48,003 nt of DNA from a virus: the IMG/VR virus record IMGVR_UViG_3300031227_000081, positions 1 to 48,003 of that record. One strand, 5' to 3'. The translations under genes and the position numbers were made by a program. Below are positions 7,576 to 12,693 of the stretch, one piece after another (positions within the stretch are counted from its first letter, which is position 1; each line of letters begins with the position of its first letter). The notes beneath the pieces are model-generated. The model worked only from the letters and a program-made list of their open reading frames with translations. It made no database searches and had not been told where the DNA came from.

Positions 7576-7926
7576 TTGGTGATAGAGGGCAATATTAAGA
7601 AGGCTGTAGTACACCTAAAGATGAGGGAGCGAGAGGAAACTTCGTTTTACTCTGGGCTGGAAAGGGTGAAATACGTACAAAAGAACTTGCCGATTGAAGG
7701 CAGACGAATACACAAAATGTATTACAATACTGATGAACATAGAGCATTTGTAAACAGGGCATATAGCAAGTTACATGAAAAAGAGGATAGAAGCTGGGAG
7801 TACGTGTTTACATTCTTACTCGGGCTAAGACAGGATGACTTTGTTATGCTTAAAGGAATATTCAATGACGGAAAACAAGTAAAGGATATGATGGACTTAA
7901 TGATAATGGATATGGAGGCTCAGTGA
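7576..7926 (+). CDS. Hypothetical protein upstream of helicase (116 aa)
   Basis: The first gene of the rightward early operon. GGAGG (7564-7568) is placed 7 bases before TTG 7576, which I take as the start; GTG 7579 is the alternative. The product is highly charged and probably helical (KMREREETSFYSGLERVKYV; DRSWEYVFTFLLG) with no recognised domain. Its TGA overlaps the ATG of the helicase gene (TGATG), so the two are translationally coupled and may work together. A helicase-loading or primase-accessory role is possible but unsupported. Confidence 0.6.
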   Translation: MVIEGNIKKAVVHLKMREREETSFYSGLERVKYVQKNLPIEGRRIHKMYYNTDEHRAFVNRAYSKLHEKEDRSWEYVFTFLLGLRQDDFVMLKGIFNDGKQVKDMMDLMIMDMEAQ

Positions 7927-9098
7927 TGCAAGAGGAAAGTATACGGAATGTCTTTGGAACATTCGAGCAGGACAATACAGACTTCATGGATGAGATTCAA
8001 CTACTACCAAGGAAGATTGTCTACAAGGGCAAGGGCTACATGGTTTATAATAGGAATTTCTTCAGGGCTATAACCGTGGCTATGGGAAACACTGATAACA
8101 TTAAAGAAACTATTATAAAGAAATTCTCTACCAAGGAAGACTTCAATGAATACTGTATAAGGGCATCAGAAGTCAACAAAAGAGTAGCTGGGCTACTATC
8201 TTTCCATGACGATCCTGAGTATAAGTTTGTATACTATGCAGAGGGCGGGACTATAAAGTGCTATTGCCAAAAGAGTGATGACAGTAAGGAACTGGAATTT
8301 ATTACAGATAGTATGTCTCAAAATTACCTACTGAAAATAGTTAGACGAATAAGATACATGGGACTAAGAAGTCTCTACTATGTAGCAAGTGATAGGAAAA
8401 TTGAAAACGCTCTAAACATGGAAATTACACGTAGAAAAAGATTCATGGCAAAGAAGCCAAAAATGGTGAGTAACGATTCAAATGTATACTGCCAGTTGTT
8501 CGTTCCGCTAGACAGAGAAGGAGAATGTCCAACATGGGATGCCTTCCTAAATCAGTTCGACGATAAAGGGAAAAAGGCAGTGCGATACTGGGTATATAAT
8601 CTTTTCAATGAAAATGCACCTGATGATAAATTTATACTCTATATAAAGGGCGATGGAAATACTGGCAAGACTACATTTTGTAATGCCCTGGCAGAAATAA
8701 TGGGGCATGAATTGTATCATACTCTCTCAGGTGATAGAAACGATATGTCAAGAAGCTCTGCCGTTAAAGGTAAACTGCTTGTAAGTATACCTGATAATAA
8801 AGACAGGAATATAATGCAAGACCAGCTATTGTTTAATGTGTCCGGAAAAGATTTGTCTAGCGTGAGGTTTATGTATACCGAGGCAGAAATGATTAGGCAT
8901 TCAGCTAAAATTATTATAACCTCGAATATACTTCCTAAATTTGACTTAAGTTTTGACTATAACAGAATTAGATATCTGCTATGCGAAACTAAAACTAAGC
9001 TTAAAAAAATAGCCAGGGCAGAGGAAAGATTACAGGATGAGTTTTTATATTTCATAAATAAATGCCATAAAGAGTTTAACAAGGACAAGGAAGACTAA
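7926..9098 (+). CDS. Superfamily 3 (D5-like) replicative helicase
   Basis: A 390-residue protein with the SF3 ATPase core: Walker A GDGNTGKTT at residues 242-250, an acidic Walker B-like strand in GKLLVSIPDNKD around 282-293, and a sensor strand IIITSNILP around 330-338. It therefore belongs with the phage/plasmid D5-type primase-helicases and would unwind DNA at the phage origin as a hexamer. The N-terminal 150 residues carry no primase motif I can see, so it is short for the family and may be helicase only. ATG 7926 is chosen over GTG 7923 because GGAGG then sits 7 bases upstream. It overlaps the preceding gene. Confidence 0.85.
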   Translation: MQEESIRNVFGTFEQDNTDFMDEIQLLPRKIVYKGKGYMVYNRNFFRAITVAMGNTDNIKETIIKKFSTKEDFNEYCIRASEVNKRVAGLLSFHDDPEYKFVYYAEGGTIKCYCQKSDDSKELEFITDSMSQNYLLKIVRRIRYMGLRSLYYVASDRKIENALNMEITRRKRFMAKKPKMVSNDSNVYCQLFVPLDREGECPTWDAFLNQFDDKGKKAVRYWVYNLFNENAPDDKFILYIKGDGNTGKTTFCNALAEIMGHELYHTLSGDRNDMSRSSAVKGKLLVSIPDNKDRNIMQDQLLFNVSGKDLSSVRFMYTEAEMIRHSAKIIITSNILPKFDLSFDYNRIRYLLCETKTKLKKIARAEERLQDEFLYFINKCHKEFNKDKED

Positions 9099-10224: not shown

Positions 10225-10260
10225 AATAGAACTATAGATTAATAATAACTAGGGGTGTTT

Positions 10261-12693
10261 ATGGCTATCAATGCAACCAAATATATAAAAAATATTGAAA
10301 CTAAACTAAAGGCTGGCAAAAAACTTACCGATAGAGAAGTTTCATTATTCAAAAGATTTGCTAGTTCAGTTGAAAGTTCAACTTTTCCTAGGTATTGCAA
10401 ATCCATGACTAATTTTGAATTCCCGTGGTTTCAAGATTTAATAATGGAAGAAGCTCAAAAAATATATGAAGCTGGTTCCGGAAGATTAATGTTTCAAGTA
10501 GTCCAGCAACACGGAAAATTATTAAGTGATGATACTCTATGCAAACTAGATATTGGCTGGGTAAGAAATGGAGATTTGCGTCCTGGTGATAACATAGATT
10601 CAGGTCAAGGATTCTATAGTAAGATATTAGCTATACATCCACAAAAAAATGTACAGATGTATAAAGTTACATTTAAAGATGGAAGAAGTATTAACTGCTG
10701 TATTGATCACTTATGGGAAATAAGATGTTCAAAATTCAAGAAGAATAAAACTAAAGTTTTAACAACTAAACAAATCTTAGAGCATATTAGTATCCCCCTT
10801 AACGAATCTATGTATATTCCTCGGTATATTCCTATAGATGATAATAAGTATGAACCATTACTATTATATTCGTATTCATTAGGAGCATTAAGTGATAAGT
10901 TTATATTAGATGAATACTTAAAAGCTTCTTATCCACACAGAAAGTCTATTATACAGGGAATGATGGACTCAAACGGACATATTATATCAAAAGGTAATAA
11001 AGCTATAGAATATCACACCAGCAGTCTACATGTAGCTAGTTGTTTTCAAAAACTTATATTTTCAATAGGCGGGTCATGTAAAATAAAAAAACATAAAAGA
11101 TGTTTAATTGAAGATGAAAATGGTACATTCAGCAAAAATATTTTCCATTGTAGAGTAAGAATTGAAAATCCCGAAAAATTATTCAGCGATGAAACAAAGA
11201 AAAATCAATGTAGTAAAGTATATACACATAAAGAAAAAAATAAATATCTAAAAATTAAGAGCATAGAAAAAAGCATAATAGAAGATGCAACTTGTCTAAC
11301 TGTTGATAATGAAAGAGGACTATATGTTGCAGAAAACTACATAGTTACTCACAATACAAAATTTTTAGGAACGCTATTTCCTTCATATATACTCGGAAAA
11401 AATCCAGACTGGAAAGTTTTATACCTTACATATTCCGAAACTAGAGCCAAGGAAGTTGCAGCCGATTTACTTGAACAAGTAACTAATCCCAAATATCAAA
11501 AGATGTTTCCAAATTTCAAACTTAAAGATGAATTAAGCGAAGAGGTCAGAGTAGCCATAAAACGTCGAAATAAGCTTACTGTCTCAAATTTTACAAATGC
11601 AAATTCATCTACTGGGGAGTTTAAGGCCGCTGGAATAGAAGGTAGTTATAACGGATTTTCAGCCAATTTAATAATAGTAGACGATTACTTTAATGGAATG
11701 GCTGATGCAATGTCAGATCAGATCAATTTTATTCGATGGGGATGCTTTACTAGAAATATCTTAACTAGGCAACAAAAAGATACTATAATAATAGTCATAG
11801 GAACTCAGTGGAGAGATGATGATATAATAGGTAACATGGGTAAATATATCCAAAATCCACCTGAGGGTGCTTTAAAATGGAAGCATATTATACTAAATGC
11901 ACTAAAAGATGAACGTGATTATCCGTATGATCATAGAAAAATTGGTGAGTATTTATGGCCCGAGTATAAGATGAATTTCTACCTCGAATATAAAACACTT
12001 GATCCTATTGGCTGGGATATTACTGCCATGAACAAGCCTGATAGTTTAATGCTAAAGATGTTTAACGAAGAATCCTTTCGTATTTATGATGTAGTTCCAA
12101 ATTTAACTGGGGCTACAATTATAATAAGTTGCGATCCTAATTATTCAAAAATTGCAAAGAAGGGTGATGATTGTGCCGTCGTAGTTGTTGCTATTACTCA
12201 GCAAAGAATTTATCTTTTAGACTTTTGGAACGAGCCTAGGGTATCACACAGAGATACTATGAATCAGATAAATATATATAAAGAAAAATACCCTACATAT
12301 TTAAGTGTACTGATTGAAGACAAAGCAGGTGGTGAAGCATTGTATCAGCTATTTGAGGAAGAAGGAGAATACAAAATAGAACGATTTATTTCACAAGAAA
12401 ATAAACGAACAAGGGCGCAATTTTTACTCCCACATTGCAGACGTGGAGCAGTTTATATTCCAAGCAGTAGGATTTATCCTAGAATTAGTGTTTTTACTTC
12501 ACAGTTCTATGCGTTTACAGGAGATGGTGGCATAATAAAAGATGACTTAGTAGATGCTTTGGTACAGGTTGCATGTCATTATGGGTACATGTTAAATCCT
12601 CCTATAAATAAAAATCCAACATATAAAATAAAAAATATGTTCTCTAGGGGAGGGCAAGTAAATAGATTGATGAGAGGTAAAGTATTTGGATGA
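10261..12693 (+). CDS. terL: Terminase large subunit interrupted by an intein
   Basis: The precursor is 810 residues; removing the 279-residue intein leaves a 531-residue terminase, the usual size. The host protein is the ATP-driven packaging motor and headful nuclease. Its P-loop is split: QHGK (residues 83-86) continues as TKFLGT (366 onward) after the intein. Walker B is NLIIVDD (469-475). The C-terminal RNase H-like nuclease shows CDPN (Asp625), IEDKAGGE (Glu686/Asp687) and DDLVDAL (Asp761-Asp765), as in the TIGR01630-type phage terminases. ATG 10261 is chosen over GTG 10255 because AGGGG lies just upstream. Activity must depend on splicing, since an uncut intein would destroy the ATP site. 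Portal, protease and capsid genes follow. Confidence 0.93.
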   Translation: MAINATKYIKNIETKLKAGKKLTDREVSLFKRFASSVESSTFPRYCKSMTNFEFPWFQDLIMEEAQKIYEAGSGRLMFQVVQQHGKLLSDDTLCKLDIGWVRNGDLRPGDNIDSGQGFYSKILAIHPQKNVQMYKVTFKDGRSINCCIDHLWEIRCSKFKKNKTKVLTTKQILEHISIPLNESMYIPRYIPIDDNKYEPLLLYSYSLGALSDKFILDEYLKASYPHRKSIIQGMMDSNGHIISKGNKAIEYHTSSLHVASCFQKLIFSIGGSCKIKKHKRCLIEDENGTFSKNIFHCRVRIENPEKLFSDETKKNQCSKVYTHKEKNKYLKIKSIEKSIIEDATCLTVDNERGLYVAENYIVTHNTKFLGTLFPSYILGKNPDWKVLYLTYSETRAKEVAADLLEQVTNPKYQKMFPNFKLKDELSEEVRVAIKRRNKLTVSNFTNANSSTGEFKAAGIEGSYNGFSANLIIVDDYFNGMADAMSDQINFIRWGCFTRNILTRQQKDTIIIVIGTQWRDDDIIGNMGKYIQNPPEGALKWKHIILNALKDERDYPYDHRKIGEYLWPEYKMNFYLEYKTLDPIGWDITAMNKPDSLMLKMFNEESFRIYDVVPNLTGATIIISCDPNYSKIAKKGDDCAVVVVAITQQRIYLLDFWNEPRVSHRDTMNQINIYKEKYPTYLSVLIEDKAGGEALYQLFEEEGEYKIERFISQENKRTRAQFLLPHCRRGAVYIPSSRIYPRISVFTSQFYAFTGDGGIIKDDLVDALVQVACHYGYMLNPPINKNPTYKIKNMFSRGGQVNRLMRGKVFG
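10519..11355 (+). mobile_element. Class 3-type intein with degenerate LAGLIDADG domain
   Basis: A 279-residue in-frame insertion (residues 87-365 of the precursor) inside the terminase P-loop. It begins LLSDDTLC, matching intein block A but with Leu where the usual Cys1/Ser1 nucleophile belongs. Block B is CIDHLW, with Trp at position B:12 (intein residue 66). Block F is ATCLTV, with Cys in place of the usual Asp at F:4 (residue 259). Block G is IVTHN followed by Thr, with Thr at G:5 (residue 277). Trp-Cys-Thr at these three sites is the signature of class 3 inteins, which splice from the block F Cys. The middle holds a homing-endonuclease-like segment: YSLGALSDKF and IIQGMMDSNG, the latter resembling GLMDTDG but with Asn in the acidic position, so cutting activity is doubtful. 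Confidence 0.88.

Follow-up and report, generated by a model that had tools for sequence, protein, structure and literature searches.

The terminase large subunit (TerL) gene of this phage is interrupted at the GK/T junction of its Walker A motif by a class 3 intein that is predicted to splice by the Cys259 route, and that carries a decayed endonuclease and is probably immobile. The probability of this reading is put at about 0.88. The gene was analysed in the context of the whole 48,003-nt stretch of DNA, referred to here as the window.

The interrupted terminase gene

The precursor open reading frame occupies positions 10261..12693 on the plus strand and predicts a protein of 810 aa from the ATG at 10261, with an alternative GTG start at 10255 and the frame open throughout to 12693. 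Judged by its sequence, the host protein is a phage terminase large subunit, matching Pfam Terminase_6C and sharing ~45% identity with the TerLs of two related contigs, L259 and L260, described below. The N-extein (10261..10518, plus strand), as delimited by alignment with intein-free TerLs, ends in VVQQHGK, which is the Walker A motif up to its Lys. The C-extein (11356..12693, plus strand) starts at Thr+1 and carries the match to Terminase_6C (E 6e-14). The exteins are intact for both the ATPase and the RNaseH-like nuclease domains, and the features by which TerL membership is judged, the acidic pair of Walker B (LIIVDD) and the nuclease aspartates, are conserved. A portal gene lies directly downstream.

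The intein itself (10519..11355, plus strand) is an in-frame insert of 279 residues, from Leu1 to Thr277-His278-Asn279, that splits Walker A as QQHGK/T and is recognised by alignment, family survey, structure model and profile. Translation across the two junctions reads ...MFQVVQQHGK / LLSDDTLCKLDIGW...ENYIVTHN / TKFLGTLF... Five TerLs of cultured phages that lack an intein read through the insertion point with an unbroken [RQ]H[GS]KS. Among 80 IMG/VR TerL relatives, 74 have a contiguous Walker-A-like motif that ends in [GS]K[ST], and a THN-type intein end was seen in none of the 80. The contiguous motif in the empty-site TerLs fixes the junctions as K(-1)/Leu1 and Asn279/Thr+1. The first-pass annotation of this DNA had placed an insertion in the terminase Walker A loop at 10519-11355, and these limits proved exact, the intein-free TerLs being contiguous there. 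Its figure of 531 residues for the spliced product was also reproduced, as removal of the intein in silico leaves a TerL of 531 aa counted from the ATG at 10261. No minus-strand ORF of at least 60 aa was found inside the intein.

Splicing motifs and class assignment

The first residue is the non-nucleophilic Leu1 (10519..10521). The core of block B, C61-I-D-H64-L-W66 (10699..10716), has the codons for Cys61 (B:7), His64 (B:10) and Trp66 (B:12) starting at 10699, 10708 and 10714, respectively. Cys259, the presumed first nucleophile, is at block F:4 (11293..11295), and block G is Thr277-His278-Asn279 (11347..11355), all of these being on the plus strand. His64, Trp66, Cys259, Thr277, His278 and Asn279 are invariant in an alignment of the window intein with nine class 3 phage inteins (alignment A1); in a further alignment (A3), Cys259 is again invariant and block G is recovered. 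Trp66 aligns to the B:12 column, Cys259 to F:4 and Thr277 to G:5, and an independent profile places them in the same columns, in agreement with the blocks B, F and G to which they had been assigned earlier.

The intein therefore shows the class 3 features that can be judged from sequence and model, namely a position 1 without a nucleophile, the Trp B:12, Cys F:4 and Thr G:5 combination (WCT), Thr+1 and a HINT fold. Class 1 inteins have Cys, Ser or Thr at position 1, where the window intein has Leu. Class 2 inteins have Asp at F:4 and Cys+1 in a KlbA host, and here F:4 is Cys, the +1 residue is Thr and the host is TerL. A profile of 76 other inteins, from which the window intein and its sister were excluded, scored the window intein at 240.9 bits (E 6e-73) with the class 3 columns aligned. 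The best of 500 shuffled sequences reached 12.1 bits, which excludes a chance match. The match to Pfam Intein_splicing was below the cut-off (19.7 vs 35.8 bits), and an NCBIfam search gave no intein match. The earlier class 3 reading is thus upheld on every feature that can be read from the sequence, and the intein falls among the class 3 phage inteins.

An AF2 model was computed from a 78-row alignment of the intein, flanked on both sides by five native extein residues, giving a pLDDT of 92.5 and a pTM of 0.91. Its splicing domain superimposes on the M. smegmatis class 3 DnaB intein 6bs8 (Z 18.7, rmsd 1.5 Å over 123 residues, 27% identity) and on M. chimaera 6riy (Z 19.0, rmsd 2.0 Å over 128 residues, 25% identity). 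The model also matches PI-SceI over 266 residues at 3.2 Å, with the endonuclease part included. As general intein structures match too, the fold identifies an intein only, and it is WCT together with the absent nucleophile that assigns the class.

Variation among related inteins

Related inteins were detected by tblastn in 365 phage records, with identities mostly near 30%. Further ones were gathered from IMG/VR and from bacteria and archaea, each species being represented by a single genome, and 168 could be read in register. The block B His is present in all 168, Trp B:12 in 165 and Cys F:4 in 165 (the remaining three are not aligned at that column). Thr G:5 is present in 164, a count that is biased upward because THN belonged to the search patterns; the Trp and Cys counts are unaffected. 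The +1 residue is Thr in 147 and Ser in 20.

Position 1 is Ala in 117 inteins, Glu in 16, Ser and Met in 10 each, Leu in 5 (including the window intein, counted through its identical copy, L018), Asp and Pro in 3 each, Gly in 2, and Gln and Val in one each. The emphasis that had been placed on Leu1 is not borne out, and Leu1 was rejected as a novelty, since L026, L056, L065 and L095 share it. L065 even begins with the same LLSDDT as the window intein, in another P-loop protein. Cys at B:7 had been correctly read but had been presented as an oddity, and that was rejected also, as Cys is the commonest residue in this column (90/168); a B-block Thr is generally absent from class 3 inteins (PMC6195587). 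With both found in relatives, Leu1 and Cys B:7 represent variation within the family.

Several further observations were made in the survey. L048, L086 and L094 have Phe in place of Trp at B:12 and retain Cys F:4 and Thr G:5. Mycobacterium phage Phrappuccino (L007, 1489-2550) carries a class 3 intein that has WCT and a Cys at +1 (SGK/AQPL...THN/C). The Bvi IcmO intein was the only class 3 intein with Cys+1 known to a 2016 paper (PMC5222942), and the Phrappuccino intein looks like another. An ORF starting near 2700 in a Neisseriaceae MAG [RXKI01000004.1] contains two full class 3 inteins (341 and 347 aa), of which only one occupies a GK site. Intein proteins in a number of RefSeq phage records, among them NC_054727.1, NC_042081.1, NC_042100.1 and NC_070650.1, are labelled 'DarB-like antirestriction', and some of these are named terminase in parallel records. 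This label is probably an error to which the intein gave rise.

The sister intein and endonuclease decay

An intein of 358 aa occupies the identical site in the TerL of IMG/VR contig 3300020125_000357 (intein L019, locus L259), which is 45% identical to the window TerL over the spliced length. The two inteins share the GK/T site, the WCT set and Cys B:7, and are 37% identical, but the L019 intein differs in its length, in starting with Ala1 and in having the LGDG and DTDG endonuclease motifs. In a quick tree confined to inteins that share WCT, they are sisters with 99% SH-aLRT support, and the branch lengths are 1.23 for the window intein and 0.37 for its sister.

That the endonuclease has decayed was missed by the first-pass annotation. 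Block C of the LAGLIDADG endonuclease is truncated to YSLGAL (10873..10890, plus strand). At this point the alignment to the profile jumps from position 131 to 195, and ~64 positions starting inside block C, including the catalytic acid of LGDG, are gone; L019 retains LGVLLGDG and the whole stretch. Block E is degenerate, reading GMMDSNGHI (10957..10983, plus strand), with Asn152 (codon 10972-10974) in place of the catalytic Asp, where L019 has GLMDTDGTI and 126 of the 168 surveyed inteins have Asp. An active LAGLIDADG endonuclease has an acid in both blocks and the window intein has neither. As both catalytic acids are lost, the intein is probably immobile. Homing has thus probably ceased, and splicing probably persists.

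This combination is common in the family. One or both endonuclease acids are missing in 48 of 165 scorable inteins, although the share of shortened inteins in the survey is inflated by the query itself being short. The full splicing set is kept in 47 of these 48, and loss of the endonuclease with retention of the splicing residues is the rule among surveyed inteins. Shortened, acid-less remnants were also seen on several branches in L005, L008, L009, L010 and other inteins under ~312 aa. The pattern suggests that homing has been lost repeatedly, and splicing kept, among class 3 phage inteins.

An intein that decayed along with its endonuclease to a splicing-dead relic, leaving the terminase a pseudogene or complemented by another phage, is unlikely. 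The state of the endonuclease is compatible with such decay, as is the long branch of the window intein, which could reflect relaxed constraint. However, all of the splicing residues are intact, identity to the sister is 43% and 49% in the two splicing halves but 33% in what is left of the endonuclease, and the TerL exteins retain Walker B and the nuclease aspartates. The class 3 intein Arth_1007 is documented as dead (PMC3196547), but it is without Cys F:4 and His B:10, both of which the window intein has. An intein that is still mobile through an active endonuclease is very improbable, since the LAGLIDADG-like remnant, which matches Pfam LAGLIDADG_3 below the cut-off (E 0.03), has lost the block C acid in the deletion and has Asn for the block E acid.

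An empty site is present in a third contig, 3300029985_000054 (L260), in which the TerL is without intein and reads QQHSKS at the insertion point (QMPQQHSKSELMG). This TerL is 69% identical to that of L259 and 44% identical to that of the window, and the three loci have portal, protease and primase-like neighbour genes in common. Single-sequence scans with the intein or TerL found one identical contig as the only close relative. This only other copy of the window intein shows no difference across the 9,335 bases that were compared, and so offers no natural variation from which to measure selection. The simplest history, inferred from these comparisons, would be ancestral gain or homing between relatives, followed by endonuclease decay on the line leading to the window phage.

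Predicted splicing route

In the class 3 inteins that have been tested, Cys F:4 attacks the N-terminal bond, the N-extein is transferred to the +1 residue and Asn cyclisation follows, with Cys F:4, His B:10 and Trp B:12 essential (PMC5222942). By comparison with these, Cys259 is expected to start splicing in the window intein. It would attack the Lys(-1)-Leu1 bond to form a block F thioester, assisted by His64, Thr277 and the pocket of Trp66. The N-extein would then pass from Cys259 to Thr+1, Asn279 would cyclise to release the intein, and an O-N acyl shift would restore QQHGKT. Thr+1 would thus double as the Walker A Thr and the presumed second branch point. Splicing is expected to be required for the packaging motor to bind ATP, and the intein is probably retained because an essential terminase depends on it. 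A direct attack of Thr+1 on the N-terminal bond, with Cys259 dispensable as in a class 2-like route, is hardly credible: a non-nucleophilic position 1 is common to classes 2 and 3, but the known class 2 inteins are all KlbA inteins that have Cys+1 and Asp F:4 (PMC4031507), the window intein has the full WCT set, and tested class 3 inteins no longer splice once Ala replaces Cys F:4 (PMC5222942).

Cys61 (B:7) and Cys259 (F:4) are both expected to lie beside the N-terminal scissile bond. A reversible disulfide between them that pauses splicing is conceivable but improbable in this phage branch of class 3, in which Cys predominates at B:7; if formed, it would make both the activation of the terminase and the packaging of DNA sensitive to redox. 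The DnaB intein of M. smegmatis has a redox response of this sort, through a different Cys pair (PMC6195587).

Other genes in the window

The window (1-48003) is probably from a contractile-tailed phage, as indicated by its baseplate genes. Its head and tail genes are distant from those known, and there are few close relatives in IMG/VR. Within 7576-9098, a 116-aa ORF shares its last four bases with the primase/helicase-like gene that follows it (7923-9098, starting at GTG). The product of this second gene matches only the C-terminal part of most of the phage primase families matched, and is possibly a split or N-terminally reduced primase. No tRNA or tmRNA genes were found in the 48,003 nt.

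Relationship to known class 3 inteins

Class 3 inteins in phage terminases and insertion between K and T of the P-loop were already known (PMC5050341), and nr contains 1701 class 3 inteins (PMC7891396). Terminase or helicase inteins of Acinetobacter TaPaz, Vibrio USC-1, Klebsiella Eowyn and Pseudomonas SL2 share WCT, THN, Thr+1 and P-loop insertion after GK with the window intein, and those of USC-1, Eowyn and SL2 likewise have shortened endonucleases. They differ in having other exteins and A, E or D at position 1, and are only ~30% identical. The mycobacterial class 3 DnaB inteins (M. smegmatis DnaBi1, 6bs8; M. chimaera DnaB1, 6rix/6riy), for which the class 3 mechanism has been studied biochemically, share the fold, WCT and P-loop insertion, but are mini-inteins without endonuclease in a DnaB host, and DnaBi1 has Ala1 and Asp B:7. 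The mycobacteriophage TerL1-a inteins (PMC5050341) are also in TerL, at the same 'classic' site between the Walker A Lys and Thr, though in a different terminase family (terminase_1); the likeness to the window intein is taken from their description.

The window intein is a further class 3 intein for phage terminases and leaves the known mechanism unchanged. Class 3 inteins vary almost freely at position 1, and Cys at B:7 is normal. The three related TerLs form a natural triple in one phage lineage, with intact endonuclease motifs in L259, a decayed endonuclease in the window and an empty site in L260, that suits the question of what becomes of splicing after mobility is lost.
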